A DNA stretch of 64,000 bases, from the NCBI RefSeq assembly GCF_000004075.3, contig NC_026657.2, forward strand, positions 24,460,408-24,524,407. The letters run 5' to 3'. Position 1 is the first letter of the stretch, and each line of letters starts with the position of its first letter. The DNA is from Cucumis sativus. Taxonomy: Eukaryota; Streptophyta; Magnoliopsida; Cucurbitales; Cucurbitaceae. This document shows positions 7,901-61,780 of this stretch, piece after piece. Under the pieces are notes generated by a model. It searched no databases, had not been told where the DNA came from, and was given only the letters and a program-made list of their open reading frames with translations. Both the position numbers and the translations under genes were made by a program.

Positions 7901-10017
<2,117 letters not shown>

Positions 10018-11620: not shown

Positions 11621-13141
11621 TTAAATTAGTTTATAAAATAGGAACGCAAACATAAAGTTCAAGAAAGATTAAACTTTAACTTAACTATTTGTCTCCCACT
11701 TGTATGATATTGTGGATCAATAGCCTTGAGAGCGAAGGCTTCCATTTGGGTTTGTGTCTTGAGAGTACATTGGGACAAAGGAATTTCAGAGATACAGAAA
11801 GATTTTCCATTGCCCAATTCAGTAGTTGCTCTCCAAACAAATCACCTTTTCCAAAAGTGTTAATCGTTGTCCTAGTTCCATTGCTCTCGCTAAATGTCAA
11901 TCCCATACCTTTTTTGAACAATAGCATCTGCTCAATAGGCTCCCCCTCTCGAATAATATACCTTTGCTCTGCGAAAACCATTGGCTTCATATCCTTCATC
12001 ATCTCTTCTATCTTCTCCTCTTCAAATTCTTTAAGCATTGGAATCTGCCAATGAAACATGGATCAAGGTTGTTTGTTTCTATTCTACCAATTTACTTCAC
12101 AAATGTACCAAGCAAAACTCACCCTCCTTAGGATATCCCAGCAAAGTTCTTTCTTTATCTCCTCAATGAATGGAGATGGAAACACGTCCAGCAGTGTTTT
12201 CAAATTGACATCATTTTTCCACTCAAACTTGTCTCTCACAAACTCTTTTGAGTTCCTTCTTCTTCTGGAATTTATAATAATCTATCCAGAAATCTATTTC
12301 AACATCTTTCTTTTGCATCGTCCTCCGTTTCTCTTCTGATCTTAAAGTTGAGGACTGCAGATATACCTGTTTTATGATGCACCCGTTTCCTTGTTACTAA
12401 TTTGGAAAAGGAGAGTTGACATATTGGATGAGAAGATCTTTAACAAACCTGCAAATTGTCGATAAGATAAACAACTAGAAGTATCCCAACAATGGTAATG
12501 AGAGCCGCAAAAATGTTTTCGGATGAATTGCTACTTGGAGTCAGGTTTGACCCAAATGAGCTGCAAATTGCATTTGATCAAACATGAGATCATACTACCA
12601 CATTTCATTATCTTCTAAACTAGGAAGTTATTTGTACCATATGAGAGTTTTGGAAGTTGAGAAGTGATCTCGTAATTTCAACCAACAAGATTTCATTAGA
12701 GTTATCATTTAAAAATGCTATCTTCGAAAGTTACTTCAAACATACTCGAGAATATCATAACCAGCATGGCTTGGCGGTGGTCTCGTGGGGAGGGGGTGAG
12801 GTTCGAAGTTGAGAAAACTTAACATATCAACATAATCTAAAACTTGGATCTTCAAGTCTAATTTTCTTCTCCCCCAATTTGCTCAGACTACGTTTGATGA
12901 AGACCAACACATATAAAGGAAAAAAATGAAATGTGATCATTGAGCTTGTAAACTCAGACGACCATTTGATCTAGTTTTACGTTGAGTTGAAGCCTATTAT
13001 CCTCATATAAATCATAAACTCACACCAATAGTTGTTGACTAAGGTAATAGCCATTTAAAATGAAGAACAAATAGAGATGTGTTGAAAGGAAGAGCTTCAA
13101 ACCTTAATGCACGTAGTCCCCAAGAGAAGCAGTATAATAAC

Positions 13142-13396: not shown

Positions 13397-16300
13397 CTCC
13401 CCCTCAAGTTGGGACGTAAATATCAATGAGGCCCAACTTGCTAACGCAGAAGTCGAAGTTTGGTCTGAGAAGCCCTTTGGTAAGAACATCAGCAACCTGT
13501 TGACTCGAAGGGATGTACGGAATGCATATGCTCCCACTGTCAAGTTTTTCTTTGATAAAATGTCGATCAATCTCAACATGTTTAGTTCTATCATGTTGAA
13601 CAGGGTTGTTAGCAATACTAATAGCGGCTTTATTATCACAGAAAAGCTTCAATGGTGTCTCACATTCCTGATGAAGATCTGTCAAAACTTTCTGAAGCCA
13701 AATTTCCTCACATATTCCTAAACTCATAGCTCTATATTCAGCCTCAGCGCTGCTCCTGGCCACAACACTTTGCTTCTTACTCCTCCAAGTTACAAGATTG
13801 CCCCAAACAAAGGTACAATAACCAGAGGTAGATTTTCTGTCAACAACAGATCCTGCCCAATCCGAGTCAGTGTATGCCTCAATGGTCTTTCTGTCTGTTT
13901 TTCTAAACATCAGCCCTTTACCAGGTGTTGATTTTAAGTATCTCAAGATTCTGTTGACAGCTTTCATGTGTTCCTCATTAGGGGTCTGCATAAACTGGCT
14001 GACAACACTCACAGCAAAGGAAATATCAGGACGAGTATGAGATAAGTAAATTAATTTACCCACGAGGCGTTGATACTGTTCTTTATCAACTGGAACTTGA
14101 TCATCAGAGTTTCCTAGTTTGCAGTTGAATTCAATAGGAGTGTCAGTGGGACGACATCCTAACATACCTGTCTCGGTTAACAAATCAAGGATGTATTTTC
14201 TTTGAGATACGGAGATACCTTCTTTAGATCTGGCCACCTCCATTCCAAGGAAATATTTCAAATTTCCCAAATCCTTGATTTCAAACTCATCGCCCATTCT
14301 CTGCTTTAGTTGACTGATTTCTGCCTGATCATCTCCAGTCAAAACAATGTCATCCACATAAACTATTAGAACAGCAATCTTTCCTGTTTTGGAAACCTTT
14401 GTAAATAAAGTATGATCAGAGTGTCCCTGCCTGTACCCTTGGGACTTGACAAAGGTAGTGAATCTGTCAAACCATGCTCTGGGAGACTGTTTCAGACCAT
14501 ATATAGATTTCTGGAGTTTACACACATGCTGACCAAACTGGGCTTCAAATCCAGGCGGAGGGCTCATGTAGACTTCCTCTACGAGGTCTCCATTCAAAAA
14601 GGCATTCTTAACATCCAGCTGATATAAAGGCCAATCTTTGTTCACAGCAACAGATAACAGAACTCTAATAGTATTCAACTTAGCAACTGGAGAAAAAGTT
14701 TCTGAATAGTCAATACCATAGGTTTGAGTAAATCCCTTCGCAACTAACCTTGCCTTGTGTCTGTCAAGAGTACCATCAGCTTTGTATTTGAGAGAGAACA
14801 CCCATTTGCATCCCACAGTTTTGTGTCCCTTAGGTAGAGTACAAATGTCCCAAGTACTATTCTTTTCAAGAGCTTTCATCTCTTCCATGACAGCATTCTT
14901 CCATTCAGGATACTTTAAAGCAGTGTAGATATCTTTTGGTATTATGGTAGAGTCAAGGCTTGCTGTAAAAGCTCTGAACTGAGGAGAGAGATTATCGTAG
15001 GAAACATAATTGCAAATGGGGTGTTTAGTACAAGACCTGGTGCCTTTTCTCAGAGCAATGGGAATGTCAAGAGAGGAATCATACTCATCTGATTTTCCTG
15101 TATGACCCTGTTCCGCTTCATTATTACGGGTTTCTATTCTGACCTCAATCTCATCACCACTGTCCTTTTCTTCCACGTTTTCAAGAACAGCAACATTAGA
15201 CCTGTCATTCTCACTTATCATATTCTTAGTACAGGGTTCAGTAGGGTTTTCCATACCTTGATCTCGAGGAGGTTCAGAGTCTTGGACTGGAGCCGGCGGC
15301 TGACTAGTAGGGGAACCGACTTCCTTTTTGTGATTCCTCCTGTAGTACGTTTTCCAGGGGACTTGGTTTGTGGGTAGGACTATGGAATGAGGAATGATGT
15401 TAGACACAACACTAGGAGTGGGTTCGATGAATTCAAAGGTGTTGTTAGACTCTTCACTCACACTCTCCCCCTGAAGATGGCTAACGGGAAAGTAGGGTCG
15501 ATCCTCACAGAAAGTAACATCCATAGTGACAAAGTATTTTCTGGATGGTGGGTGAAAACATTTATAACCACGCTGGTGAGGGGGATACCCAACAAACACA
15601 CATGCCTGAGCCCGAGGGGTAAATTTGGTTTGATTAGGGCCAAAATTATGGACATAAGCGGTACACCCAAACACACGAAGAGGAACCTCAGAAACATGAC
15701 GAGTCGATGGGTAGGACTCCTTAAGACAATCTAAGGGAGTTTGAAGATGAAGAATACGAGAAGGCATTCTATTGATTAAATGAGCTGCTGTAAGAATAGC
15801 ATCTCCCCACAAGTATGAAGGAAGGGAAGTAGAAAGCATAAGGGAACGGGCTACTTCCAGAAGGTGACGGTTTTTTCGCTCGGCCACTCCATTTTGTTGA
15901 GGAGTGTAGGCGCACGAGTTTTGATGAACAATCCCCTTGGAAGCAAGAAATTCACTAAGGTTATGGTTTTGGAATTCCCGACCATTATCACTCCGAAGAA
16001 TAGCAATTTTTTGATGGAATTGTGTTTCAATGGTGTGATAGAAATTTTGAAACATAGAGGAAACCTCAGATTTATCAGTGATAAGGTAGACCCAGGTAAG
16101 ACGGGTATGATCATCAATGAAGGTTACGAACCACCGTTTTCCAGATGAGGTTGTTATCTTGGATGGTCCCCAGACATCACTATGAACAAGAGTGAAGGGT
16201 TGGGTTGGTTTGTATGGTTGTGAGGGAAAAGAGACTCGATGTTGTTTGGCCTGAATACACACATCACAAGATAAGGTAGTCATCTCAACTTTAGAGAAGA

Positions 16301-18431
16301 GATGTGGAAATAAATGTTTCATATATTGAAAATTAGGGTGGCCTAAACGAAAATGCCACAACATACAATCTTGTTCAGAAGTAGTGAAATAGGAAGATAA
16401 GAGACTAGTCCTAGGAATGCTACTAGAAGAGGTATCGTCATCAAGGAGGTAGAGTCCCCTACTATGCCGGGCAGTGCCAATCATCCTCCCCGAGCTCAAG
16501 TCCTGAAAAGAGACAGAATCAGGTAAGAATATTGCTTTGCAGTTTAACTCATGAGTGATCTTGCTTATCGAAAGCAAATTATAAGATAGTTTGGGCACAT
16601 GCAAAACATTATGTAAGGAGAGCTCTGCACAAGGAGAAATCTTCCCCTTTCCAGCAATGGGGACCAAGGAGCCATCTGCAATTCTAATTGTCTCGTTTCC
16701 AGCACAAGGAATGTAAGATACAAAATGTTCAGAGGACCCAGTCAAATGATCTGTGGCACCAGAATCCAGAATCCAGGGGTTCTTCCCATCAATACTAACA
16801 AGACCGAAGGAATGAGGTATACCTGATTGGACAATGGCACCTAAAGTGGCAAGACTGAGATCAGTTTGGTTTTTGTGTGGATCGGATTGTTGAGGAGGTT
16901 CAGCAGACTCACTCACATACGCCCGCCCTGTGTTCTGTTTGTCGTTGGAAGGGCGTTTCTTACTTCCTGGGGGACGACCATGTAACTTCCAACATTGTTC
17001 TTTGGTATGCCATTGTTTTTTGCAATGCTCGCAGACAGGAATTGGTTTTCCATTATGCTTGTCACTGCTACTGTTAGAAGATCTTGCACTAAAAGCAGCA
17101 GAGTCAATAGTAGGGGTTGCGGAAATATTCATAGCACTTGTGCGATCTTCCTCGAGGCGGATTTCAGAGCAAACTTCCATCAGGGAGGGAATCGGTCTTT
17201 GACCTAGTATACGCCCTCGAACTACATCAAACTTAGGATTAAGACCAGCAAGAAAGTCATAAATCCTGTCATTCTCTTCAATTCTCGAGTACTGTACACC
17301 ATCAGTGGGATCACGCCAGACTAGTTCTCTGCATAGGTCCATTTCTTGCCATATAAGAGAAAGCTTATTGAAAAAGGATGTGACATCCATGGTTCCTTGC
17401 TTGCATTCATGAACTTGCTTTCTCAGCGTGTATAGACGAGAGGCATTCTGACGTTTTGAGTAAAGTGTCTGGGCTGTGTCCCAAATATCCTTGGCTGTTG
17501 CAGCAAACAATAACGGCTTGCCAATTTGAGGTTCCATACTATTGATCAATATGGATCGAAGAATAAGAGTCTTCTGCCTTCCAATATCGTTCATGTGGGT
17601 CGCCCGGTAGGGGGCGAGGTATTTCCCCTGTCAGAAAGCTAAATTTTTGTCGTCCTTCGAGGACCATCTTTACTGACTGAGACCATGAGAAATAGTTGTT
17701 GCCATTCAACTTTTCTCCTGAAAGATGATACATGGAAGACTGAGCCACCGTATTAGTCACATAAGGAGAGGATACATTAGGGAACGAGTTTACCGGATTC
17801 TCAGAATACATCGGTAGAGTGGATGTCGTCCCTAAGGTAGCCTCAAGTGCTGCTATCTGTTGTCGAAGCCCTTCCAATTGTTGATGAACTAGTCCCGAGG
17901 AAGCTTGCACGTTACGGTTGGAATATGCCGAAGATTCACCAACCTCAAATGTTGAGTGAATTTGAGAGTTTTTAACATCGGGATGGTAGCTAGGATCATT
18001 GGGTGGCTGGCCATACAGATTTGACGGCAGAAGCGGTGGTAGCCGATTGGAATTAGATGGCAGAACATAAATCGGGGCGTGGGGAGCAATATAGGCCGCA
18101 GACGAAGAAAAGGGCTGGACAGATGGGATGGTCGGCGCCGTCTGAGGAAGAAAACCAGGCGCGTCGTGGTCCGGCGGAGGCGCATGGTGGTATGGTGGCG
18201 GCGCGTGGTGGTCCGGTGACGGCGCAGACGACTGCGGTAATGACAAAAAATTATTTTCGGACGTTTTCTGTAGCCGGCTTAATAATTCGTCCATGGCAGC
18301 ACTCATCCGAGCATCGATGGCAGCAGCTACAGCAGCACTAAAATTGATGGCTGTCCCTTCTGTTTGATTTTCATAAGTGGTTTGGTTTTTTTGGGTTTCT
18401 AGGGTGTTTTCATTGTCCCGCTCTGATATCA

Positions 18432-18686
18432 TATTGAAAAGAGAGACAACGAGTTCACACCAATTTACGTGGAAACCCGAGTACCGGGAGAAAAACCACG
18501 ATTGCTTGTTGTTATTATTTTCTAATGAATAAAACAATAGGTACAGGGGAGAATAAATAGAGTACACAATGGAATAAAAAAGGAAAAGATTTAGGAAAAT
18601 AAGGAATACATCCCCATAATCTTTCCATAATTATTCTAGGATTCTAACAAGGAAAAAGCCTAGAAAAAAAGGAAAGAATTCCAACA
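18432..18686 (-). repeat. 5' LTR of the young copia element
   Basis: The partner of the other LTR at about 98 percent identity by eye. The second copy of the ATAAC target duplication is at 18687-18691. The element's own tRNA primer site begins immediately inside, at about 18431 reading leftward. Confidence 0.93.
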
Positions 18687-27657: not shown

Positions 27658-27847
27658 TTTTTCAGAAAGAGAATTTGTCAGATGACAAATTATGATTAGA
27701 CAATTTGATAAGATATCCAAAGATAGATGTTGGGTTATTCAAGATTCACATAAATACTTTTCTCGGTCGTTTTAAATTAGTTTATAACATAGGAACACAA
27801 ACATAAAGTTGAAGGGAAATTAAAATTTAAACTTAACCTATACGTAT

Positions 27848-28723
27848 TTATGTCCCACTTGGTATGATATGATATTGTGGATCAATAGCCTTAAGAGTGA
27901 AGGCTTCCATTTGGGTCTGTGTCTTGAGTGTACATTCGAACAAAGGAATTTCAGACACATGAAGATTTTCCACTGCCCAAATCAGTAGCTGCTCCCCAAA
28001 TAAATCACCTTTTCCAAAAGTGCTAATCGTTGTTCTAGCTCCAGTGCTCTTGCTAAATTTCAATCCCATACCTTTCGTGAATAGTAGCATCTGCTCAACA
28101 CGCTCCCCCTCTCGAATAATATAGCTATACTCTGCAAAAACCATTGGCTTCATATCCTTCATCACCTCTTCTAACTTCTCCTCTTCAAATTCTTTAAGCA
28201 TTGGAACCTGCGAATGAAACATTGATCAAGGTCATTTGTTTCTATTCTAACAATTTACTTAACAAATGTACCGAGCAAAACTCACCCTCTTTAGGATGTT
28301 GCATCAAAGTTCTTTCTTTATCTCCTCAACGAATGGAGACGGAAACACGTCGAGCAGTGTTTTCAAATTGACATCATTTTTCCACTCAAACTTGTCTCTC
28401 ACAAACTCCTTGATTTCCTTCTTCTTCTGAAACTCATAATAATCTATCCAGAAATCTATTTCACCATCTTTCTTTTTCATCGTCCTCCGTTTCTCCTCTG
28501 ATCTTAAAGTTGAGGACTGCAGATATACCTGTTTAAAGATGCAGTCATTTCTTTGTTACTGACTTAGAAAAGGAAAGGTTTACATATTGGATGAGAAGAT
28601 CTTTAACAAACCTGCAAGTTGCCGATAAGATAAACAACTAGAAGGATCCCAATAATGGTAATGAGAGCCGCAAAGATGTTTTCAGATGAACTGCTACTTG
28701 TAGTCAGGTTTGACCCAAATGAG
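27848..28723 (-). pseudogene. CNGC-like pseudogene 2 (last three exons only)
   Basis: Carries the S6 exon (28612-28723, filter GSNL), C-linker exon (28286-28528) and nucleotide-binding exon (27848-28207). The C-linker exon has an in-frame TGA at 28304-28306, where the open copy has a Cys codon (KELCWDILKR). Homology to the intron upstream of the S6 exon continues to about 29020 and then stops abruptly, so exons 1-4 are absent. The binding exon itself is open, ends without an IQ motif (MEAFTLKAIDPQYH and so on) and keeps GKGDLFGEQLL. Confidence 0.85.
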
Positions 28724-32373: not shown

Positions 32374-35300
32374 TTAACTTAACCTATACGTAATTGTGTC
32401 CCACTTGGTATGGTATTGTGGATCGATAGCCTTAAGAGCGAAAGCTTCCATTTGGGTCTGTGTCTTGAGAGTACATTTGGACAAAGGAATTTCAGATACA
32501 GGAAGACTTCCTGCTGCCCAATTCAATAGTTGCTCCCCAAACAAATCACCTTTTCCTAAAGTGTTAATAGTTGTTCTAGTTCTAGTTCTCTTACTAAATG
32601 TCAGTGCCATACCTTTCGTGAACAATAGCATATGCTCAATAGGTTCCCCTTCTCGAATAATGTAGCTCTGCTCTGCAAAAATTATTGGCTTCATATCCTT
32701 CATCATCTCTTCTAATTTCTCCTCTTCAAATTCTTTAAGCATTGGAACCTGCCAATAAAACATTGTTCAAGGTTTTTTGTTTCTATTCTAATAATTTAAT
32801 TCACAAATGTACCGAGCAAAACTCACCCTCTTTAGGATATCCCAGCAAAGTTCTTTCTTTATCTCCTCAGCGAATGGCGATGGAAACACGTCGAGCAATG
32901 TTATCAAATTTACATCATTTTTCCACTCAAACTTTTCTCTCACAAACTCTTTGATTTCCTTCTTCTTCTGGAATTTATAATAATCTATCCATAAGTCTAT
33001 TTCAGCGTCTTTTTTTTGCATCGTTCTCCGTTTCTCCTCTGATCTTAAAGTTGAGGACTGTAGATATACCTGTTTAATGATGTTGTCGTTCCTTTGTTAC
33101 TAATTTAGAAAAGAAGAAGGTTGACATACTGGATGAAAAAATCTTAACAAACCTGCAAGTTGCCGATAAGATAAACAACTAGAAGTATTCCACTAATGGT
33201 AACGAGAGCCGCGAAGAAGTTTTCCCATACATAGCTACTTGTAGTCAGGTTTGACCCAAATGAGCTGCAAATTACATTTGATCAAACATGAGATGATACT
33301 ATCACGTTTCATTATCTTATAAACTAGGAAGTAATTTGTACCAGATGAGATTCCAAAATGATCTCATAATTTCAATAAACAAGGAGTTAGTTCGAGTTAT
33401 CATTTAAAAATGCTATCTTTGAAAGTTAGTAACTCAAACTGTAAATTAGTTTTTGAGTTGGTCTAGTTAATTCCTAGTTTCTATCAAGTTAATTTTAGTT
33501 GTAATCAAGTCTAAGTTCCTATATTCTTGTGAAGTTAGTAGGATTAGTGTTGCTAACTTTGTGGAATCTATTTTCTAGAATGAAATTGATACTTCCCATC
33601 TTTCTCATTTCCTTCTCATTAATTAGAACAACAGTTACTTCAAACATACTCGAGAACATTATCATTTAACCAGAATGGCTTGGTGGTGAGGTTAGAAGTT
33701 GAAGAAACTTCACAGATCAACACAATCTTAAACTTGGATCTTAAATAATTTTCCCTCTCCCCTTATTTGCTCATACTACGTTTTGATGATGAAGGCCAAC
33801 ACATACAGAGGAAAAAAATGAAACGAGATCATTGAACTTGTAAACTCAAACGACCATTTGATCTAAGTTGAGTTGAAGCCTATTATCCTCATATAAATCA
33901 TAAACTCACACCATAGTTAATGATTAAGGTAATAGCCATTTATCATGAGGAGCAAATGTAAAAGTTTCGAACCTTAATGTACGTAGCCCCCAAGAGAAGC
34001 AGTATAAGAGCTTTTTATTAAAACCATTTATCCTCGAGATACCAGATTGATGGGCGCTAAGGAATAAACCAAAATCGAATATTGCTGGATTAGGTGGATT
34101 GATAGGGCAAAACTTATCAACAAACCAGTCATTGCCCGTGATATCCTCACAAAAAAAGGAATTCACTCTACATCCACTGTCAAATTTGCAGGCATTTTGC
34201 CAGCAATACAGTTCTCTTAGAACTGCGAAGCAGTACCAAAATGCTCCAAGCACCTTCACAAACGAAAAAAATACAACAACTTCAAAACCAATACGATCAT
34301 TCAGAACATTAAAACACTAAATCCCCATTCTTGATAAACGGAAGGTAAAGAAACATACATGACTGGCAAAAATGAAGAGAATGAAATTGAATGTGCCTCT
34401 GAACTGCCCGGTTCCTGTTATGTCATTAGGAGCAGCACTCCTGGAAAGCTTCTTACATAACACATAGATTCGGATGATTCTTGGGACAAATTGGAAGAGA
34501 GGCAGAAAGATGAGTCGCCAACTGTTTTTTAAATATTTGATACTTTTCCTACTTGTAAAGACTACCACAAGGATAATCTGCACATTTCCTGTTGTCAATG
34601 TTAAGAATTGGAGTACTTCTTGTGATCATTTAAAAGAAATATTTAAAGGTAATAGATAAAAGTTCTCCTTTAAGTATTTAAATATTTAAAGAAAATATAA
34701 TAGATAAACAATTCTTCTCATATTTAGGAATCTTTTATCCTTAAAAAAGTTATTCCCTTTTCTCTAAAGAAAAGATCTTCTCGGCACTATAAAAGAACAA
34801 GTCCTCTTCCTTGTTCACTTCTTGCATTTGCTGTTATGTTGCAAAGAACTTGTAATCCGATTACTTCTTTATTTTATTTTTATGAAGAATTTCTGATATA
34901 TTCATTCATTGCTTCCATTGTATCTATCATAAAGAGATATAAGGAAGATTCCAATATTTGATCTCGTGTCACCTAATTCAGGGGAATCTACCAAACATAA
35001 TTAAGGAAAATTAAACCCGATTATTTTTTAGGACTAAAAAGAGTTACTTATATTACAACAAATCTCTTCTACCTATAACTTAACACTCATTTCAACTTTA
35101 ATAATACTCTTATCTGACCTAAAACCATTTACATAACTTCTATTTCATTTTCCTCTCCTCAGCTCTTTTTCTCACCTCATTTCCATCTTCTTCTCCAAAT
35201 AACCACTCTCCACGTGGTTTCCTTTTTCTTCCTCTTGTCTCCATCGTTTTTCCCAAATAACCATTATCTTCCTCTTTCTCTCATCGTCTTCGTTGTCTTC

Positions 35301-36694
35301 TTTTCGTCTCACATCGCCTTTCTCTACACGACGCCTTCCTCTTTAGTAGATTTTGGTTTTTCTTTTCCTTTTTGCGTGAATTGTGTTTTTGTTGTGGGTT
35401 TCACCGAATTTATGGGTTTTTGCTAGATTTTTGTTTTAGCCTTGAGTTTTTGTATTCCTCTTTGCCGTGGGTTTTGATCCTCTTCGTTGTGGGTTTTCGT
35501 CTTCTGCTTGTTGGCTTTGTTCTTCATATCCCATTCTTCATCTAGTTCTCCATAAGATTACAAGAAGACCTTCCTATCTAGGTTTGATAATTTTACTTTT
35601 TATGTTTAATGGAGGATATATTTTTGTTTGATATTTAATTGAATTAAATGTGAATAAAATAAAAAATGAATCTCAAACAAAACGAAGAAACAAGAAACAG
35701 TTATAAAAATAGAAAATTTAAAGACAGATTAGGCAAAAAGATGTGTAATTACATCTAATGAAATTTCCCTAAATTTTATCTGTTTTATATAAGTCTTAAG
35801 AGACAATGACAAAACTAAATGTTGTAGAGGAATTCACAAGAAGTGAAGATCAAAAGTGTTATGAGTATGCCAATGAAAATGAATTAACACTCGAGTTTAC
35901 TCCCAAAAGTAGATGGGGTTTGATCCAAAATAGGCAATGGTATAAGAGGAACATAAAGTATTGAAGAAGAACCTGTGGAAGGGGAAGCAGAGCCAAAAAG
36001 TCGACAATAACACTCATCCATGGTACCCTTTTGCTAACATCAGCAAGGCGTCCGAAGAAAGTCAGAGGAGCCACATTCGTTTTAGAATTGGGACATAATT
36101 CAAGTATTGAACTTGAGTAGACCTTGTAGGCGACTTCGAGTAGAAGGATGAAGTCCGTCACTGTCCTGGCCCCAATGGCTGCGTTCTTTATCTTTTTGTC
36201 CACGGCGAAGCATTTTCTTTGATCGTCTATGTAGTAGATGTAGAAGAACAAAACATCGAGGCAGACAGCTATTATAGATGAAATGAGAAACCCAAATCGT
36301 AGTACAAATTTTGTGTGCTCTTGATCTTCCGAGCTTGTCCTGCATGTAAATCATACAACAATTACACGAGTTCATCTTCAACCAAGGAGAAACAAAGGAG
36401 TTCAGTTCACAAACTTTCGAAGTTCAATTGAAACGAGTTTTACCAAGTTCAACACAAGTCCCTATTTCTTTCTATATTCTGTATGAGGCATGAGATTGAA
36501 ATCCTTATCTAAGTATCTGTGTTCGTACTTGTTAGAACTCAAGAGATATAAGAAAATATTAGTAAGAAAGAAAAGAAAAACTGTAATAATAAATAATGGC
36601 AAAAAGTAAAGGTTGTAACTTCGAAATAGATTTAGAAAAACAAAAATGAAAACAAGAGAACCAACCTGGAAGTAATATTGTTTGCATTGGCCAT
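32374..36694 (-). CDS. Divergent C-terminally truncated CNGC-like channel
   Basis: Seven exons, all GT-AG and in phase: 36666-36694, 35973-36339, 34359-34577, 33973-34253, 33153-33264, 32827-33069, 32374-32748. This gives 541 residues with no internal stop. Plant CNGCs are tetrameric plasma-membrane cation (Ca2+) channels. S1-S4 span exons 2-3, with the Arg-bearing S4 (PRIIRIYVLCKK). S5 follows in exons 3-4, the pore and S6 in exons 4-5, the C-linker in exon 6 and the nucleotide-binding domain in exon 7 (GKGDLFGEQLLNWA). Unusual points: an N-terminus about 50 residues shorter than its canonical neighbours, filter GSNL (residues 302-305) instead of GQxL, and a C-terminus ending soon after MEAFALKA without the IQ calmodulin site. 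Start chosen at MANANNITS, in good context. Function is uncertain; it could be a modified subunit or a dying gene. Confidence 0.75.
33429..33632. mobile_element. Insertion in intron 4 of the divergent channel gene
   Basis: About 200 bp absent from the same intron of pseudogene 1, where AAAGTTACTTC is continuous. Here AGTTA is present on both sides. The insert's end, with TTCTCATTAATTAGAACAAC, resembles the end of a copia-type LTR. Likely an LTR fragment or other small element. Confidence 0.45.
34632..35770. other. Replaced segment of intron 2, divergent channel gene
   Basis: Intron 2 is about 1.4 kb here against about 0.6 kb in pseudogene 1. Homology stops after TTGTGATCATTTA and resumes near AAGTCTTAAGAGACAATGAC. 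The new segment has a TATA-like CACTATAAAAGAAC at about 34785 and a CT-rich stretch (35100-35540) like a transcribed leader, on the + strand, opposite to the host gene. It may be a transposon with its own promoter. No protein recognised. Confidence 0.4.
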
Positions 36695-37324: not shown

Positions 37325-37800
37325 TAAATAAGATAGATGTTGGGTACTTGTCCAAGATGCACATGATACTTTTCTTGGTAGTTTTAAATTAGTTTATAAC
37401 ATAGGAACACAAACATAAAATTGATGGGAGATTAAATTTGAACTTAACTTATACGTATTTGTGTTCCACTTGATATGATATCGTGGATTGATAGCCATAA
37501 GAGGAAAGGCTTCCATTTGGGTATGTGTCGTGAGAGTACATTTGGAAAAAGGAATTTCAGATACATAAAGATTTACGGCTGCCCAATCCAGTAGTTGCTC
37601 CCCAACCAAATCACCTTATCCTAAAGCGTGTTAATAGTTGTTCTAGTTGCAGTGCTCTTCCTAAATGTCAATGGCATACCCTTTCGTGAACAATAGCATC
37701 TGCTCAACAAGCTCCCCCCTCTCCAATAATATAGGTCTGCTCTGCAAAAACCTCCTTCATATCCTTCATCATCTCTTTTAACTTCTCTCCACTTCCACTT
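37325..37800 (-). pseudogene. CNGC-like pseudogene 3 (binding-domain exon fragment)
   Basis: Only the 3' flank and the last exon of the divergent channel type are present. The frame is changed between GMPLTFRKSTATRTTINTL (about 37625-37685) and VGEQLLDWAAVNLYVSEIPF (about 37550-37609), and the start is replaced by a CCACTT simple repeat at about 37793. No other exon lies upstream before the next unit. Clearly dead. Confidence 0.8.
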
Positions 37801-38366: not shown

Positions 38367-38554
38367 TCAAAAACAGAATTTGTAAGATGACAAATTATGA
38401 TTAGACAACTTGATAAGATATCCAAATTAGATAGATGTTGGGTTATCCAAGTTTCACATAAATACTTTTCTCGCTCGTTTTAAATTAGTCTATAACATAG
38501 GAACACAAATATAAAATTCAAGAGAAATTAAACTTTAAACTTAACCTATATGTA

Positions 38555-40543
38555 TTTGTGTCCCACTTGATATGATATTGTGGATCAATAGCTATAAGAG
38601 CGAAAGCTTCCATTTGGGTCTGTGTCTTGAGTGTACATTCGAACAAAGGAATTTCAGACACATGAAGAATTTTCACTGCCCAATCAGTAGCTGCTCCCCA
38701 AACAAATCACCTTTTCCAAACGTGCTAATCGTTGTTCTAGCTCCAATGCTCTTGCTAAATTTCAATCCCATACCTTTCGTGAATAATAGCATCTGCTCAA
38801 CAAGCTCCCCCTCTTGAATAATATAGTTATGCTCTGCAAAAATCATTAGCTTCATATCCTTCATCATCTCTTCTAACTTCTCCTCTTCAAATTCTTTAAG
38901 CATTGGAACCTGCCAATGAAACATTGATCAAGGTCATTTGTTTCTATTCGAACAATTTACTTAACAAATGTACCAAGCAAAACTCACCCTCTTTAGGATA
39001 TTGCAGCAAAGTTCTTTCTTTATCTCCTCAACGAATGGAGACGAAAACACGTCGAGCAGTGTTTTTAAATTGACATCATTTTTCCACCCAAACTTGTCTC
39101 TCACAAACTCCTTGATTTCCTTCTTCTTCTGAAATTTATAATAATCTATCCAAAAATCTATTTCACCATCTTTCTTTTGCATCGTCCTCCTTTTCTCCTC
39201 TAATCTTAAAGTCGAGGATCGCAGATATACTTGTTTAATGATGCACCCATTTCTTTGTTACTCATTTAGAAAAGGAGAGGTTTACATATTCGATGAGAAG
39301 ATCTTTAACAAACCTGCAAGTTGCCGATAAGATAAACAACTAGAAGTATCCCAGCAATGCTAACGAGAGCCGCAAAGATGTTTTCGCATGCATAGCTACT
39401 TGTAGTCAGGTTGGACCCAAATGAGCTGCAAATTGAATTCGACCAAACATGAGATGATACTATCACATTTCAATCTCTTCTAAACAAGGAAATTATTTGT
39501 ACCAGATGAGAGTTCTGGAAGTTGAAAAGTGATCTCATAATTTCAACAAAGAAGAGTTACTTCGAGTTATCGTTTAAAAATTATATATTCGAAAGGTACT
39601 CATACTCGAGAACATTATCATTTAACCAGCATGGATTGGTGGTGGTCTAACAGATCTAACATAATCTCAAACTTGGAATGCTTTAAGTCTAATTTTTCTC
39701 TCCCCGTATTTGCTCAGACTACGTTTTGATGATGAAGACCAACACATACAGAGGAAAAAAATATAATGAGATTATTGAACTTGTAAACTCAGACGACCAT
39801 TTGATCTAGTTCTAAGTTGAGTTGTAGATTATTGTCCTCGTAAAAAACATATACTCAAACCAATAGTCGATGCTTAAGGTAATAGCCATTTAAAATGAAG
39901 AAGAAACAGAGATGTGTTGAGAAGGAAAAGTTTCAAACCTTAATGCACGTAGTCCCCAAAAGAAGCAGCATAATAACTTTACGGGAAAATCATTTACCCT
40001 CGTGACACCAGATTGATGGGCGTTAAGAAATAAACCAAAATCGAATATTGCTGGATTAGGTGGATTGATAGGGCAAAAATTATCAACAAACCGTTCATTG
40101 CTTGTGATATCCTCACAAGAAAATGAATTCACCTTGCATCCACTGTTAAATTTGCATGCACTTTGCCAGCAATACAGTTCTCTTAGAACTGAGAAGCAGT
40201 ACCAAAATGCTCCAACCACCTTCACAAACGAAAAAAATACAACAGCTTCAAAACAAATACGATCATTCAGAACATTAAAACACTAAATCTCCATTTTTTA
40301 TAAACGGAAGGTAAAGAAACATACATGACTGGCAAGAATGAAGAGAAGGAAATTGAATGTGCCTCTGAACTTCCCGGTTACTGTTATGTCATTAGGAGCA
40401 GCACTCCTGGAAAGCTTCTTACATAACACATAGATTCGGATGATTCTTGGGACAAATTGGAAGAGGGGCAGATAGATCAGTCGCCACTTGTTTTCGAAAT
40501 ATTTGATACCTTTCTTACTTGTAAAGACTACTACAAGGATAAT
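38555..40543 (-). pseudogene. CNGC-like pseudogene 4 (exons 3-7)
   Basis: Exons: 40325-40543, 39939-40219, 39314-39425, 38988 to about 39230, and 38555-38909. The S4/S5, pore and S6 exons are open (filter GSNL). Three defects are visible. The C-linker exon's acceptor reads CAA-G instead of the CAG-G of its relatives. The binding exon lacks one T near 38690, so it ends at LLIGQ. Exons 1-2 are missing: homology to intron 2 of pseudogene 1 ends at about 41050. A 5'-truncated tandem copy. Confidence 0.83.
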
Positions 40544-47015: not shown

Positions 47016-50000
47016 TCAGAGAACATGTGGAGACTCCGGAGGAAAGGGTGTTTCATTGCTCTGTTCTTGCAAGCCATTGCTGTTGCTAGGTCCAGCTTCG
47101 TCATTGCTTCCAATCCCTTTTTTTCTTCTATGATTTAAAGCACGTACTATGCGAGCAATAAATCTAGAGGCATGAAGGCTTGTGGTGGTGGCTGCAGGTT
47201 GTGGATTCCCAATTTCAACCACTACGCTTTGCTCACATTTCTCTCTTTCACGCTTATTCTTGAAGTAACGACGCCACGCAGCTTGCAAGACGACAGCAGC
47301 CCATGCAGCCCATCGTTCTTTTAAGTTTGGATCATTTCTAAGCTCTCGACTGATGAGCCACCAGAATTTGGAGACCACATTCTTCAAATCATTTGCAGTT
47401 AAAACAAATGCTTCCACTTTGGTGTGTGTAGACACAGTTTTTGTGGACATGGGAACAGTGGTTAAGAGTGGATCTTTCAATACCCATTTCAAGAGATCTT
47501 CTCCAAAGAAATCACCTTTTGTAAGGCTCTCAGAAGAACCTGATATTTCATCACTCCTACTGGAATTGGAATAGATCCATAATTTTCCATGGATTATGAA
47601 GATCATCTCGTCTAGCGGTTCTCCTTCACGAACGATGAAGTTACGTTCAATATATAGCCTTGGCTTCAGATAACTACAGACGGCATCCAAGAATTTCTCG
47701 TCCGTGTTTTGAAACATTGAAACCTTTACCACATATTACAACAATACCATGGAAGTCAGACACAACATCATGAATGGAAACAGAAAGGAGAGCGAGAAAC
47801 TTACACTTTTGATTGCACGTAAGCAAAGATGTCTTGTTGTGTCCCTTCTAAGGTCTTTAGGAAGATTATTGAGAATGTTAGCAACATCAACACCTCTAGT
47901 CTTCCGCCATTTATACTTCTCGTATTGTTTGATCCGATTCCTTAGATCACGCGGGAGAGAATGGTAGGCCATCCACAGTTCAATATCTTGCCCCTTCAAT
48001 CTCATTTCCTCCAGTCTAGCAATTGTTGCCTGAAGATATGTCTGTTTTGCAATCAAATTGCCATGTCAGGGTGTTACTGGTGTTGCCTTTAAACCTTGTA
48101 ACAGCAATGCTAGTAGAATAGATATGGGAATATTAGTGGGTATTAAAGGTATACTAGTAATTAGTTTGGGAATTCGTTACGCCTGTTGGTTAGAAAAATA
48201 GAAAGGGCGGGGAATCAAGAAGATATCCATTATTTTGGTGAGTGACTTAAGGCGTGAGAGAGATTGCAAGAGAATGGTCCAAATACCCTGAACACTTGGT
48301 TTCTCATGCGTTTGATTATCTTCTACCTTTCAATAAATTTGGGTTCTATCACCATGTTACCATGTACTGAAACATTTATTTCTAGATCATGAAATCATAG
48401 ATGAATCTTAAATTGACACTGACCTGCAAATTTCCTATTAGAAGTGCAAACAATACCAGGCCCGCAATCGTTATGGAGATGGCAAAGTAAATTTCCCATA
48501 TATCCTTGCTAGTTTTGAGGCCTTGACCCAAAGAACTGAGAAAAGTAGGAAGTGATCAAATATGTAAACGTAGAGTAGGGATGGAGAACAAATACATAAG
48601 ACATAGGCTTTTGAATACAGACCTTAGATTCTGCAGACCCCACCAACAACAATAAGAGAACTTCCATATGAAATCAGTCGAAGAGACAACGCCAGAATTC
48701 AGGGCATCATCAAATATTCCGTAGTCTAAAGCTGTTGTGACATTTGATGCTGTTCCAGAGCAAACATCATTTATGCATGATCTCTCAAAAGAGCTGTTGT
48801 TATTCATCCGAGAGCAATATGGATGACTATTACACCTTATTTGCACGCAGGATGCTTTACGCTCAACAGAAAACAAGTACCAAAAGGCTCCAAAGGCCTG
48901 GAAGGAACAGATAGATACTGAGTTAATGCTAAGATATGGGCAAATGTACAGAAGTACAGAAGACTGATGGCATGTTTGAAATACCGAGAACATGTTTGGA
49001 ATGATTTTCTAATTACTTAAAAAATGTGTTTTTAGCCGGAATCAGCACAACCAATGATTTTACAATTTCGAACAGAAATCCACACTACTTTCACTGAACA
49101 ACCAAGTTGATAAGATAAGATGGAAAAGCACAAGGACACGTTATTTCCAACGCCAAAGAAACCCATAATACCTAACAGGTTATTTTGTAGTCTTCATAAA
49201 TATCCTCTGATTTGAGAAAAAGAAACAAACAGTTAATGAGACATAATGAGCTCTTGTTCAAGAAGAGTTTAAGACCGACTACACTATATCACTCAATGCA
49301 AAACTTTCCTAATTAGCTCTTAACTAACCTAAGAAAAAGTATCCACTTATACGATCAATGCTTTCCAAATTTTTTGAGTTTTGAATAATGCCAGTCTCAC
49401 TCTGAAAGCCTCTCAACTTAAGCTGTTTTTTTACTGAATACAGATGAGATGAATCCTTAAAGATAAGTAGCAATTAATTAATGGTATGCAAGAAAATAAC
49501 AAGATAAAGATTGGCGGTGAACGTACATGACTTGCAAGCATATACAGGAAGAGATTGAATAAAGCTTTGACTCCAGCAGAGTCGGGCAAAATTCCAGAAC
49601 TCCATCTAACTTTCTTTAAGAATAAGTAAACTCGAGACACCCTTGGAAAATACTGAAATATAAGGATAAATTTCAATGACCTTAGAGCGGTTAAATGAGA
49701 AGCTTTTGTTCCTTGAGTGACTATTAGAATCACCACCTGCACACATGTTTTCTCACATGTCACTGGATAACATATATAACTTTAATGTTCCGAATACTAT
49801 ACTTAGGCAGAATAATAGTCCAAACCTGTGGGAGAGGAAGAACAGCAAGAACGTCAACGGTAAAGTAAGATAAAAGATATCTTGTAGCTAATGTGCAAAG
49901 TCTTCCACTACTTGCATCATTCGGGGCAGTATAACCAATGCGAAAATGAAAAACAATGAGAAGTATGTAGCCAAAATCAACAAGCGAACGTAAAACTACA

Positions 50001-50652
50001 ACCGTGACCATTAACTTATTGTCAAACTCTATACAGCTTTTCTCTTCATCAACTAATAGGATGTAACAGAACAGAGGGTCCAGTAAGGTCGCAATTACAC
50101 ACATCAACACAAGCACATCGTTCCACAGATGAAGAAATAGCAAATTTCCTTCAATAGATCTTTTTATGGAGCTCAATCCTTTACTCTTGACTTCTTCATC
50201 AAAATGAATGTTTCCAAAACTGGTTAGTTTATCAGTAGGAGACTCAAGTCTTGTTGGCACTGATCCCACGGAATTCGTCGAGTGAATGTCTACATGGGAA
50301 GAAAGATTCTCAGACTGATGTTCATGAGAGAAAGACCGAATCCTAAAAAAAAAGAAAAAAACACAAGTAAAATAATAATTTATAAATGATCTGCCTATGA
50401 AACACACGAACAAACATAAAACAAACTTAGCAGTATTATTTAATGAACTCAATTAACCAAATTTGAATCTTTACTTCCTCCCTTTCAGATTCTAAAGAAA
50501 AAAACTAGAACCCTTTTTTCAGAAACTGTAATGGAGTAACTTGTCTCCCTCTCTCCCAAAAGCAGAAATCACAAAACCAGGCCAGAGCCAGAAAATGGTC
50601 GAAAGATAAGTATGGTAAGAACAAACCGTATGGCATCATCTTCTACATTCAT
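47016..50652 (-). CDS. Cyclic nucleotide-gated ion channel (CNGC), canonical copy A
   Basis: Seven exons, all GT-AG and in phase: 50627-50652, 49826-50342, 49527-49736, 48623-48897, 48424-48535, 47805-48041, 47016-47723. This gives 694 residues, the usual plant CNGC size. Expected as a plasma-membrane Ca2+-permeable channel subunit in signalling. It has an N-terminal cytosolic part, S1 (LHLWNDVLVLMCVIATLLD), S2-S3, S4 in exon 3 (PRVSRVYLFLKKV) and a Cys-rich S5-pore loop with CCWWGLQNL. The filter is GQGL (residues 346-349), followed by S6 and the C-linker (GVDV...DLRRD). The nucleotide-binding domain has the plant hallmark LTKGDFFGEDLLKW, and the IQ motif is VVLQAAWRRYFK (about 602-616). Start MNVEDDAIR is in exon 1; an ATG four bases further downstream runs straight into a stop. 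Intact. Resembles group I CNGCs; the exact orthologue is not assigned. Confidence 0.9.
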
Positions 50653-53108: not shown

Positions 53109-56100
53109 CCACCATAAAAAATATAGTGTGAAAATTTGTGTATGTCTTGACTCCCAAAGCTTTTGATGCAGTCACTTCTTCTCGGGTTTTAGGAACCCAA
53201 TTGTTTGAAGACATTTGAGGAACTTCATTCGAGTGATTACCTTCGTCAACATATCAACTGTGTTTTCACTAATATAAACTTTGAGCACTTTCACTTCCTG
53301 TTTTTCGATTTGTTCTCTGATGAAGGGAAATTTAATATCTATGTGCTTAGTTTCTACTGTGATACTGTTGGTTTTAGATAAATGAATAGTGTTTTGGTTA
53401 ACACATTAGATCTTTACAGATTTTTGTGATAAGCCAAAGTCCTTCAGTGGTCCCTTTAGCCAAATAACTTCCTTAATAGCTTCTAAAAGAGTTATATATT
53501 AGCTTCAGTAGATGATAGGACCACTAGAGGTTGTAGTGAAACTTTCCAGCTTAGTAGGTTGCCTCCAATTAAGAAACAATATCCTGTTAGTGACCTTCTC
53601 TTGTCCAAATCCCCTGCATAGTCAGAATCTACAAAACCATAAAGCTCTTTAAGGCATATTTTATAGATTAATTGAGCATTCATAGATCCCTTTAGGTACC
53701 TAAGGACCCATTTGGTTGCTTCCCAATGCCTTTTTCCTAGATTAGTCATGTACCTACTAATTAAACTAGAAGAGTAAGATAGATCAGGCCTAGTATAAAT
53801 CATTAAGTATATTATACTCCCTATCACTTGTGAGTAGGGGATGTTAGTCATGTACTTAACATAGTTGAGGTCTTCTGGGTTTGGACAGTTAGCAGATGAT
53901 AGTTTGAAGTGTTGTACAAGAGAAATTACAACTTGCCTAGCATCTAACATATTAAACCTTTTAAGTACCTTACAGCAGTAGTTACTTTGGTCAATTGTTA
54001 GAAACCTCTTTGTTTTTTCTCTTGTGATGTTGATGGCTAGAATTCTCTTAGATTCTCCAAGTTCCTTCATATCAAATTTTTCCTTCAAGGCCGTCTCTAC
54101 TCTTTTAATCAAATTTTGATTTTTCTGCAAATAGCATATCATCTACATACAAAAGTAAGTAAACCTTAGAAGAATAGGAATTTGGATTTATAAACGCACA
54201 ACTATCATAGGAACTTTTATTAAAACCAAGTTTAAAGATGAAATCATCAAACCTTTTGTACCAACACCTTGGTGATTGTTTTAGACCATAGATGGATTTT
54301 TTAAGATAACATACATGATAATCTTCTTTACCTTTTTCAATGTATCCTTGTTGTTGGTTCATGTATGTTTTTAGTCAAATAACCATGTAAGAATGTTGTT
54401 TTAACACCAAGTTCAAGTTATTTGTTTTACAATCGATGAGAATATTTCATTGTAGTTAATTCCCTCCCTTTGTGTAAAGCCTTTGGCTATAAGCCTAGCT
54501 TTATATCTAGGAGGTTGAAGACCGAGAACTTCTTCTATAAGTTTATAAATCCATTTGCAAGATATGGTCTTACAATTTCTAGGTAGCGTTACCAAAGTCC
54601 ATGTATTATTGATAGTAAGAGATTTCATTTCATCATTCATGGAATTTATCCAATATCTAGAATTAGGACAACTCATTGTCTCATCAAATGTTGACGGTTC
54701 ATCACCATTTAGATAATTCATATCATTTATGGCAAACTTCACAAAATCTGCTTCACTGTATCTAGAAGGAGGAACAATAGTCCTTTTTTGTCTATCAATA
54801 GCCAAAGAATAGTTTGATAAATCTTCTTCTTCTTGAGTAACATCTTCTAGAGTAGGTGGCAGAGTGATCCTTATTTCTGTTTCTTCCTCAACGCTACTAG
54901 GAAGTTTATTTAATTCATTGTTGGTGGGTGCTCCACTTCAATCTCATTTGGCTTATAATTTGAATCAAGTGTTTCATTAGGTTTATCAAGCATAAACATA
55001 GTATCTTTCTTAAAACTCACACCTCTACAAGTTATACACATTTTTTCTATAGGATGCCACATTCTAAATCCTTTAACTCCCTATGTAAAACCTAAGAACA
55101 TACATTTTATAGCTCTAGGTTTTAATTTCCCTCGAATTTGATGGAAAATCGTATACAACCAAATATTCTAAAGTTTTGTAAATTAGGAGGATGTTTAGAC
55201 CATTTTTCTTCAAGTGTTGGAAAGTTTGTAGAGTGATGAGGGCACTTATTAAGGGTGTAAACAATATAGAAAACAACTTCTGCCCAAAAGTTTTTTAGAA
55301 TTAAACTATTAGACATTTGACATCTAACCCTAACCCTATCCATTATGGTTCTATTTAACCTTTCAGCAACACAATTTTAGTGAGGGGTATATCTTACAAT
55401 TCTATGCCTTATTATTCCATGTTCTTTACAAAAGTTATTGAATTTCTCACTACAAAATTATAAACCATTATCAGTTCTCAGTCATTTAACTTGTTTAGAA
55501 GTTTGTTTTTCTACCATGGTTTTCCATTCTTTAAATTTTCCTAGAGTTTGGTCTTTAGACTTTAAGAAATAAACCCAACTATCTTTATAGTAATCATCAG
55601 TAACGGTTAGAAAATACATGGAATTATTTAAAGATGGTGTTTGTGAGGGTCCCCATAGGTCGCAATGAATGTAGTCTAGGATACCTTTGGTGTTGTGATC
55701 AGCCTTTTGGAAACTTTGTCTTGTAGACTTGCCAACTACATAATGCTCACAAAAAGAAAGCTTTTCAGTCACTCCTTTAAAAAGAATTCCCTGTTCTACA
55801 ACATTTTCAACCTCTTTCCACTTATATGGGAAAGTCTTCTATGCCACAAATCTCCTTCAGTTAGCTTATCATAAAAAACAATTAGGGTAGCATGATTTTT
55901 GAACTTAAGTGTAACAGATCCAATGCCTACAATCTTGCAAGCATTGTCATTTTCCATGTATACTAGGCCTTCATCCCACACTTTGTATGTTGTAAACCAT
56001 CTCTTTAATGGTGTTATATGGAATGAACACCCTGAATCAAATACCCAATCATGAGTATTTTTATTACCTTATGTTTGAATTGAATTTTATAAGATAGGTA

Positions 56101-57797: not shown

Positions 57798-60700
57798 TCA
57801 GACTCTGCTGGATTCAGCTGCTTGTGCTTTTTTGGCCTTTAGCTTAAGAACACGAAGGACTCGAGCCAAGTTAGAGTTAAGAAGTCGGGTACTTGAATGC
57901 GGAACAACATTCCTTCTCTCAATAGCCAGCTGAGACTTACACTCATCCTTCTCATTCTTGCTTTTTAGGTATCTCCGCCATGCTAACTGCAAAGCTAAAG
58001 CCGCCCACGGTGCCCATATTGCTTTCAAACTAGGAGAGTTTCTGCTGAAAAGCCACCAGAATTTCGAGACCACAGTTTTTAAATCATTTGCCATGAGGAC
58101 GAACGCCTCAACTTTCGTGTGCGCACGGATGGTTTTGGTCGATATGGGGACAGTGGTTGAAGCAGGATTTCGCAGTGCCCAATCTAGAAGATCCTCTCCA
58201 TAAAAGTCACCTTTTGTAAGCCATCTTGACTCTGAGGAATTATCTACAGCTTCACTGTCTCTTTTTGAGTAGATCATTACTTTGCCTTGAATTATGAACA
58301 CCATTTCATCCAGTGGCTCTCCTTCTTGAACAATGACGCTTCGCTCAATGTACAGCATTGGCTTTAGATAATCACATATGGCATCCAGAAGCTTATCGTC
58401 CACGTTTTGAAGCTTTGAAACCTTTTTAACATATTATCAACCAGAAGAATGTGGCAACTAATTAATGCCATATACAAGGCCATTATCATTAAACGTAGGT
58501 GGTTTTGGACTTGTGCATTTTTTTAAAACAGCATGCTCAATGTTGAAACCTGAATGAGACAACAAACTTACACTTAAGAGTGGAGTCAAGCATAGATGTC
58601 GTTTGGTGTCTCTTCTTAGATCTCTTGGAAGATTACGAAGAACCTGCTCCACGTCAACGCCTTTGGTTTCTCGCCACTTGTACCGTTCATACTTTTTAAT
58701 CTTTTTCTTCAACTTGGGTGGGAGGGAATGGTAAGACATCCACAACTCGATATCTTGCCCCTTCAATCTCATTTCCTCCAATCTTGCTATGGTTGATTGC
58801 AGATATGTCTATTAAATATTACACAAGAAAAAAAGAATAACTCGTCAGATCAGATACTGTCGAGGGATTATGTGTAAACTAAAACTTTTAACCATCAAAA
58901 TAACTAATTACTGTATGCTATTCTACTTGCCAAAGCAAAACTGGGCCTAACGCGCCTAGTTGACGAGTTTGAAGTAGGCTTACTGACCTGCAAATTTCCA
59001 ACAAGAAGAGCAAATAATACCAAGCCAGAAATGGTAATGGTGACTGCAAAGTAGATTTCCCACAAATGGTTACTAGTTTTGAGATCTTGACCCAAGGAAC
59101 TGCAACACATTACAATTGAGGCATGTCAGAAGAAAAATCTTGTAAAGTGAGTTTCCAATTAGGTGAGTTGCCAAGTTCTAACTTGTAAAGCCCTTTCATT
59201 TTCGGACAAGAATCTTGTATCTATGATAAATCAATAAACTTCATCTGTCTTTTCTCTTGCAGAAGCACAAAAACTACTCTTAAAGAAAAATGTCAAGCGA
59301 GAACAAGGCATAAATGTGGAATGATACCTTAACTCAGTCAAACAATGTCTTTATCTTGCTCAAAAAATATGCATTACTAGGTAAGTACTTTCTAGTTTCT
59401 CACATAACAAGAATGCCAAAGAAGCACAAGTACAATGAGCTATTGACTGGTAAAAGTAAATCCAAAAAAATGTATCAGAGAGTAGAGAATCTTTTGAAGG
59501 AAAACCTCAATTTCTGCAGACCCCACCAAAAACAGAGAGAAAATTTCTTCACGATCTCTCTTGATCCCACAATAGGAAGAGCGTCTTTGAATATTCCAAA
59601 ATTAAAAGAATTGGAATCATTTTCAGCTTTCGGAGAGCAAATGGTGTCGACACTCAAGTTGCCTACGTAATTGCAGTTTAGAGACCAATTTGTGTAGTTT
59701 TCTTCCCAGCAAGTTGTTTTTCTCTCTATAGTGAACAAGTACCAAAACGCTCCAATAACCTAAAAGAGCAATATTATTAAAAGCTTGCTAGAAGAAAGCA
59801 CACGAGAGTAACTGTTGGTATCAATTATCTACTTCTACAGAATACGCTTCTGCATGTTCTTCACCAAAACAAACTAATAGTTTGACCTATATTGATAATC
59901 AAGAAACCACGTACTAACTCTTTAAAACGAACAAAAATGAAGGTTGATAAATGAGCCTACATCCTGGTATTCTCTTGCAAATGCACTGTGAAATATAATA
60001 CTATTGAATAAGCATGGTTATGACATTATGTATTGTCACAGCTTGAAGCATTCATGTCACAGATTGCTTTTTGAAACCAGAAGACAGATCAATTTTATGC
60101 TTTTTCATGTTTATCACATTTTGTATCTTCTTTCCTTTTCTCTTCCAAAATTTTAACTGAATCAATCTTTGAGTGTAGTGTAATCCATCGAAAAAAAGAT
60201 GAAAAAACTAAAACAAGCACAAAAGTGGCGGTTAACGTACATGGCTTGCAAGCATATAAAGGAAGAGATTGAATACAGCTTTAGCCCCGGCACTTTCTGG
60301 GAGAATGCTCGAAGTCCATCTAACTTTCTTTAAGAATGAGTAGATTCGAAAGACCCTTGGCAAATATTGAACGATGAGAATATATTTCAATGACCTCACT
60401 GCGTATATAAATCCATTTCCTCTTAAGCTTGGAATGAGAATTAAAACCACCACCTGCACACGAGTATCTTTCACATGCATCAGAATAATATCATCACCCT
60501 AAATAAATAAAAGGCCAGGATCGTCTTGGGGGTCTACATATAATCAAATCCTTCAAGGAAATACAAGGATTAGAAAATTGGAGGAAAACTAGAGATTGAT
60601 AGAATCTAAGCCTGCAGAGGCTGATGTTTCAAACCTGGGGGAGTGGAAGAACTGAAAGAACGTCAACTGTGAAGTAAGAGAAAAAGAATCTCCAAGCTCT

Positions 60701-61780
60701 TGTCCAAACACCATCATCGGCTTCATCAGGATTTGCATTATAAAATGTGGAATATCCAAAATGAAAATGACAGACAATGAGAATTATGTAGAGGAAGTCT
60801 ATGATTGAGCGAAGAATTACAACTACTTTTCTCATTTTGTCGTCAAATCTAACACATCCTTTGCCTTCATCAACCAACAGGGTGTAACAGAACAAAGGAT
60901 CCAATGAGGTAGCAATCACACACAACATGACAAGTATTTCATTCCACAAATGAAGAAATACTGGGTTTTTATCAACCAGAGATTTAAGATATCCCAAACC
61001 TTTACTCCTAACTTCTCGGTCAAATCTTATGTTTCCAAAACTCGTAAGCCTATCAAAACTAGCAGTAAAGCTTGTTGAAATTGATCTCAATGCTTTCACT
61101 GAATTCCTTGAGCGCGTTTCTACGATAGACGAAAGTTTACTTTCACTGTGTTGTAGATGAAAACTTTCTGGACTCCTGAACAGGGGACAAAGCAAGTGGA
61201 ACATAGGTCAATAAAACTATCTTCAAAGGAGTCATAACTCAACCAAAATGGCAGTATATTTTCTATAAACCCAACTTCTTTTCACTTTTGAAATATTCAA
61301 TTTGTCTTAGTTCCTACATACAAAAAGGTCTCAAACTCATGAAATGGATAGAATTACACGGCTACAGGTTATAGTATTTTTGTGAATCTAAAGCAATTAT
61401 GAAGCATAACCAAGTAGAAAACACAAACACGTTATGAAACTTCTAACAGTCAGAAAAACTTTGAAAGTTAGTAGTGCAGAGAAAGAAAGTGAGAAGTTAG
61501 TTCTGCCTTAAAAAAATCCCTTTTGCTCCTTCCCGACTTCCCCAGATGCAGTTGAACCCCTTGAAAATGACCATAACTAACTCAACGTGCAGTAATAAAT
61601 TAAATTGAGAGAACATATGGCAAGTGGGTTCCATTTCTTTTACCACAGAAAACTATAATACAAGTTCTTTCACTACTTAAAACCCAAAATTCCACAACCA
61701 CAGTTATGCAACAAGAAGAACAAGAAGTAGAGGAGAACTTCAATTCCAAAAGGGAACTTAACTTACCTCCGTTCTTCCAT
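57798..61780 (-). CDS. Cyclic nucleotide-gated ion channel (CNGC), canonical copy B
   Basis: Seven exons, all GT-AG and in phase: 61767-61780, 60635-61175, 60241-60453, 59506-59759, 58988-59099, 58572-58808, 57798-58421. This gives 664 residues. S1 (LHLWNEILVMLCVIATSLD) is at about 80-98, S2 at 122-145, S3 near 166-185, S4 in exon 3 (PRVFRIYSFLKKV), the pore with CFWWGLQKL, and filter GQDL (344-347). S6 is at about 356-378, then the C-linker (GVDVEQVLRNLPRDLRRD). The binding-domain hallmark LTKGDFYGEDLLDW is at about 525-538 and the IQ motif ALQLAWRRYLK at about 600-610. Role as for the other canonical copy: cation influx gated or modulated by cyclic nucleotide and calmodulin. Exon phases and lengths match copy A, so they are tandem paralogues; the filter residue (D against G) differs. 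The 14-base first coding exon (MEERR) makes the start less certain than the rest. Confidence 0.9.

Follow-up and report, generated by a model that had tools for sequence, protein, structure and literature searches.

In the 64-kb stretch of DNA analysed here (the window), a divergent member of a tandem set of plant CNGC genes, which we call D, has a selectivity filter that reads SFGSNL in an open gene model and has no IQ region. Our reading, to which we give a probability of about 0.6, is that D, an intact tandem paralogue, has diverged rapidly from an AtCNGC1-like CNGC (which we take to mean a Group I CNGC) and is plausibly a modulatory subunit with changed permeation, its filter having arisen somewhat more likely by in-frame changes than by a shift of register.

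The CNGC genes of the window are all on the minus strand, and six pore exons, each of 112 bp, were detected among them. Two genes are canonical CNGCs with an IQ region, A (57798..61174) and B (47016..50342), and each was modelled with six exons, all open, in a model without the upstream start exon. D occupies 32374-36694. There are four decayed relatives of D, which are truncated, frameshifted or split: P4 (40.5-38.5 kb), P3, a lone CNBD exon from the D lineage with a frameshift (37441..37787), P2 (28.7-27.8 kb), and P1 (20.5-11.7 kb), which is split by a Copia element. This Copia-type retroelement (13404-18630, minus strand), identified by eye, contains an open frame of 1408 residues with another frame upstream of it, and it parts the exon 4 pieces of P1, which end near 18700 and 13145. 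We also noted, by eye only, open frames between A and B (53492-54937, minus strand) that resemble fragments of a second Copia-like polyprotein, and an open frame at 9419-9784 on the plus strand that resembles part of a spermidine synthase-type enzyme. Searches of IMG/VR gave 37 pattern matches with the pore/C-linker query of B and 31 with the D query, and a search of GTDB genomes with the alignment A1 gave 68; none of these matches was confirmed as a relative.

The manual splice model of D has seven exons on the minus strand, 541 codons, no stop and GT-AG borders. Exon 1 (36666..36694) has the modelled start ATG, and by alignment to CNGCs exon 2 (35973..36339) encodes the first transmembrane segments and ends in LPLPQ, exon 3 (34359..34577) is the region before the S5-turret exon, and exon 4 (33973..34253) encodes the turret, with five cysteines that are also in AtCNGC1, and the pore helix. 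The selectivity filter and S6 are in exon 5 (33153..33264), which is 112 bp long with AG/GT borders. Exon 6 (32827..33069) encodes the C-linker with a 4-residue insertion and includes a lysine-rich stretch, and exon 7 (32374..32748) encodes the cyclic-nucleotide-binding domain, with the stop before any IQ region. The one Pfam match in D, PF00027 (CNBD), is barely over the cutoff (28.1 vs 27.5 bits), with the C-terminal end of the domain cut short, and Ion_trans had no match at E up to 0.01, though the alignment to AtCNGC1 spans that region; both results count against our reading of D.

The D filter codons are TCA TTT GGG TCA AAC CTG (S-F-G-S-N-L; 33246..33263, minus strand), in an exon with ttgcag before it and gtttgt after it that opens with a C completing a split Ser codon. 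The corresponding codons are TCC TTG GGT CAA GAT CTC in A (pore exon 58988..59099, SLGQDL) and TCT TTG GGT CAA GGC CTC in B (48424..48535, SLGQGL). The pore exons of P1 (12449..12560) and P2 (28612..28723), also on the minus strand, have the same filter codons as D, and that of P4 (39314..39425, minus strand) also reads SFGSNL, its second Ser being TCC instead of TCA, the sole filter-codon difference among the four copies. The filter Gln found in A, B, AtCNGC1, AtCNGC5 and CNGC15b is Ser in D, P1, P2 and P4, which supports a D-lineage filter that differs in kind from that of the neighbouring A and B. The window has five exact copies of the word TTGGGTCAA, each of them inside a pore exon (A, B, D, P1 and P2), and the sixth pore exon, that of P4, has TTGGGTCCA in its place. 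In D, where the word is at 33251..33259 on the minus strand, and likewise in P1 and P2, it begins one base further along the reading frame than it does in A and B.

The changed filter and the displaced word had been described in an earlier, sequence-only reading of the window, and we found its coordinates, length and codons for the D exon to be exact. The codons it gave for the canonical neighbours are also right, with the labels exchanged (its A, the copy with GGC, is our B), which leaves the facts unaffected, and the displaced word is there as described, as is the same filter in pseudogenes 1, 2 and 4, with GGGTCC in the last. That reading had further claimed that the filter change is older than the amplification, and we agree, barring gene conversion: since SFGSNL is common to D, P1, P2 and P4, it predates their separation unless gene conversion spread it. 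When tblastn was run with three IQ queries, matches with E <0.5 were found only in A and B and none near the five D-lineage CNBD exons (32374-32748, 27830-28207, 38538-38909, 37441-37787 and 11676-12043), so the IQ loss probably predates the amplification too.

From the displaced word the sequence-only reading concluded that a base had been inserted ahead of it and another deleted behind it. We asked how often such a match arises by chance. We scanned protein-guided codon alignments (A-D, 1515 nt, 49% identity; B-D, 1536 nt, 50% identity) for words that match when displaced by 1-2 bases. In both A-D and B-D the filter gives the sole 9/9 match, and A-B has none. As a null we held the residues of D and redrew synonymous codons, a procedure whose scope is codon choice and not the residue changes themselves. 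A 9/9 out-of-register match appeared somewhere in 83/2000 redraws against A and 49/2000 against B (41/1000 and 33/1000 in a second run), and at the filter itself in 27/2000. Given the residues F-G-S, the product of codon frequencies puts the chance of TTT-GGG-TCA by codon choice at 0.016. Depending on the measure, the chance of an out-of-register match is therefore 1.4-4.2%, and at about 1.6% given the residues, coincidence of codon choice alone is an unlikely source of the match at the filter. Looser words are common, with 8/9 matches in 542 of 1000 redraws (A) and 526 of 1000 (B), and there is another out-of-register word, of 10/11 bases, in the C-linker exon in B-D (D 32827-33069) that is absent from A. 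One or more 10/11 words turned up in 72/1000 redraws vs B and in 60/1000 vs A, and this second word is probably due to chance. Because of the common 8/9 words and the 10/11 word in the C-linker, we regard the register match at the filter as suggestive but not strong.

If the match does record a compensated frameshift, a T would have been gained before TTGGGTCAA and an A lost after it, for example from TTG GGT CAA AAC, leaving F-G-S-N in frame. Both changes may have come about in a single complex event, or in a duplicate that was for a short time free of constraint. The codons of this ancestor are assumed, with Gln-Asn as in AtCNGC1. In favour of such a shift are the low chance of the match given the residues, the absence of any second 9/9 out-of-register word from either A-D or B-D, the position of both supposed indels in short runs (TT and AAAA), the fact that the AAC ancestor requires no further core change, and a blastn alignment of D exon 5 with A that begins at TTGGGTCAA and has one gap. 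The same bases can be reached from TTG GGT CAA AAC either by +T/-A or by four in-frame substitutions (TTG>TTT, GGT>GGG, CAA>TCA). The substitution route has costs of its own, as it makes the register match at the filter a 1-2% coincidence and needs two changes for CAA>TCA, via Pro or stop unless a longer route was taken.

A codon fit outside the filter gave an omega of 0.18 and a dS of ~4 for D vs A, and an omega of 0.07 and a dS of ~10 for D vs B, with pairwise codon times to D of 4.3 (A) and 8.3 (B). With synonymous sites between D and A or B saturated, the survival of a 9-mer is poor evidence that its bases are homologous in register, nine unchanged bases on a long branch are costly for the shift, and there was ample time for the in-frame route. 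We compared the two routes in a codon model with ancestors of our own choosing and the event placed at mid-branch. For the AAC ancestor, the probability of the exact indel pair at which both routes break even is just 3e-6 to 2e-5 when the branch is short (codon time 0.75), 9e-5 to 4e-4 at codon time 1.5 and 1.5e-3 to 7e-3 at codon time 2.5, so that on the longer branches the pair needs about 9e-5 to 7e-3 for parity. For two ancestors without AAC, whose fifth codon was treated roughly, the break-even value ranges from 3e-7 to 0.13. Our own estimate of the indel-pair probability, which takes in published indel rates, roughly two substitutions at each neutral site and the T and A runs, is ~1e-2 if the lineage was free of constraint; for a functioning gene it is lower by many orders of magnitude. 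The rates are 0.020u for +1 and 0.042u for -1, and compensated pairs are rare in working genes, with 0.002-0.003 expected in each gene across an entire vertebrate or insect tree (PMC8935012, in part).

Set beside the estimated rates, the break-even values make the answer turn on whether the lineage had a constraint-free phase; in the codon model the indel pair comes out close to parity with substitution or short of it. Based on these figures, we consider in-frame substitutions on a long branch somewhat likelier than a +1/-1 pair or a single complex event, which we rate at perhaps half the weight of the substitution route. The fuller proposal, that a selectively kept channel lineage gained its filter by a nine-base compensated frameshift spanning that filter, which turned Leu-Gly-Gln codons into Phe-Gly-Ser, and was kept as a modulatory CNGC subunit without an IQ-type calmodulin site, seems to us unlikely. 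The earlier interpretation is partly supported: the register match is suggestive (~1.6% by codon choice), and the gain and loss of one base would, given the synonymous saturation, be one candidate origin. If the frame-restored shift is true, it would be a rare compensated frameshift inside the most constrained segment of the channel.

The filter might also be older than the array, an inherited type belonging to a separate CNGC clade and not newly made here. D matches AtCNGC1 (PDB 9j34), its best solved relative, at E 8.9e-111 over D residues 27-529, followed by AtCNGC5 (3.8e-77) and CNGC15b (2.1e-74), and the similarity runs through S1-S6, the pore and the CNBD, as expected of a plant CNGC. 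The filters of D and AtCNGC1 align without gaps (SSFGSNL vs SSLGQNL) and are distinguished by two changes, Leu>Phe and Gln>Ser. An old clade would fit the very long branch of D, 1.62 changes per column, and among six proteins, without CNGC2/4/19/20, a grouping of D with AtCNGC1 apart from A and B was not rejected (p-AU 0.078), but the best six-protein tree puts D with A and B (90/90).

Filters known from other plants also weigh against an old type. The Arabidopsis triplets listed in part of PMC7830781 are AGN, AND, GNL, GQG, GQN and GQS, and the luffa consensus motif includes SSLGQNLE (PMC11508470, Table 2, in part). GSN is absent from the Arabidopsis and soybean triplet lists and the luffa motif compared, which come from portions of their sources. 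In the literature searched, itself part of the whole, we found no text match for SSFGSN or similar strings and no paper on a CNGC pore with GSN; the portions of PMC9593079 and PMC9400807 covered hold no information on filters. An old, inherited SFGSNL is in our judgement improbable. The sequence-only reading had called a whole lineage with a frame-rewritten filter unusual, and GSN is indeed outside the lists compared, but GQx is not universal in Arabidopsis, which has AND, AGN and GNL as well (PMC7830781, in part), and departure from the filter Gln as such is already known.

Selection speaks to whether the D lineage was functional at all. Pairwise dN/dS is 0.24-0.39 between D and P1, P2 or P4. 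It is 0.69 between D and the P3 fragment, a value that counts against our reading of D, and 0.69-0.83 between P3 and the other four. We counted D-specific changes in exons 5-7 at sites where P1, P2 and P4 agree and where the codon is ungapped in all four, a count that leaves out P3, other site patterns, and exon 7 after D position 345. The 34 D-specific sites fall 5/6/23 on codon positions 1/2/3, with 13 nonsynonymous and 21 synonymous changes against a neutral nonsynonymous share of 0.776 (P 9e-7), the pattern of purifying selection; the open D gene under selection is a firmer result than the origin of its filter. Selection constrained the branch that separates D from the copies, so the rewritten filter sat in a gene under selection there, however it was made. 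These changes span the D branch and the stem of the copies, so D itself could have died recently. Constraint also seems to mark the changes specific to P1 (11 N, 10 S, P 0.009), while those specific to P2 (7 N, 5 S, P 0.11) and P4 (11 N, 6 S, P 0.16) show no departure from neutrality. That the whole D lineage is non-functional and its filter drifted in pseudogenes would suit the broken state of P1-P4, the dN/dS of P3, the neutral-like changes in P2 and P4, and a D that is short and without an IQ region, but the 541-codon frame of D is unbroken and its splice borders are good, third positions hold 23 of the 34 D-specific changes, and P1 too looks constrained. From the substitution pattern we judge plain pseudogene drift unlikely.

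Returning to D as an intact paralogue, we propose that its lineage swapped the canonical S-L-G-Q for S-F-G-S, with Asn-Leu after the filter as in AtCNGC1, and that this lineage, which has no IQ region at the C-terminus, multiplied locally, with D now its one open gene and P1-P4 its four decayed copies or fragments. It counts against this account that gene conversion, too, could have kept the copies uniform at the filter. D would make a channel subunit whose filter ring has no Gln side chains where it is narrowest, and it should consequently change Ca2+/Na+ permeation. In MtCNGC15b the filter is Ser344-Gln347, the side chains of the pore-lining Gln347 restrict the path, and Q347E abolishes the Ca2+ current (PMC12284214, in part); D has Ser at the position of Gln347. 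D is possibly a modulatory subunit, by analogy with animal CNGB, and most plausibly it would, within tetramers that also contain canonical CNGCs, widen or neutralise the filter ring and would escape IQ-based calmodulin control. If this is true, a selectively kept paralogue with Ser and no IQ would be a natural test of the role of the filter Gln, and also of whether plants use CNGB-like modulatory subunits.

Several known systems invite comparison with D. The compensatory frameshift pairs of PMC8935012 (in part) resemble the case proposed for the D filter in having a short shifted segment with the frame restored, but those pairs were placed on species trees, whereas the D case is drawn from the copies within the window. 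Like D, the Arabidopsis filters AND, GNL and AGN are without the canonical Gln (PMC7830781, in part). Their residues differ from those of D, which has Ser and then Asn-Leu. We take these three filters to be those of Arabidopsis CNGC2/4/19/20.

In animal CNGB, Gly replaces the filter Glu and mixed channels show weaker Ca2+ block (PMC10761061, in part), so in both cases a paralogue has a small residue, Gly in CNGB and Ser in D, where the filter of the main subunit has a polar or charged one. The two are not orthologous, and heteromer formation by D is a prediction. CNGB carries calmodulin sites of its own. D differs from AtCNGC1 in having no IQ, or calmodulin-binding, region after the CNBD, S-F-G-S and not S-L-G-Q, a 4-residue insertion in the C-linker and a short modelled N-terminus, but it keeps the Asn-Leu after the filter, the five turret cysteines and the cysteine of the S1-S2 loop.
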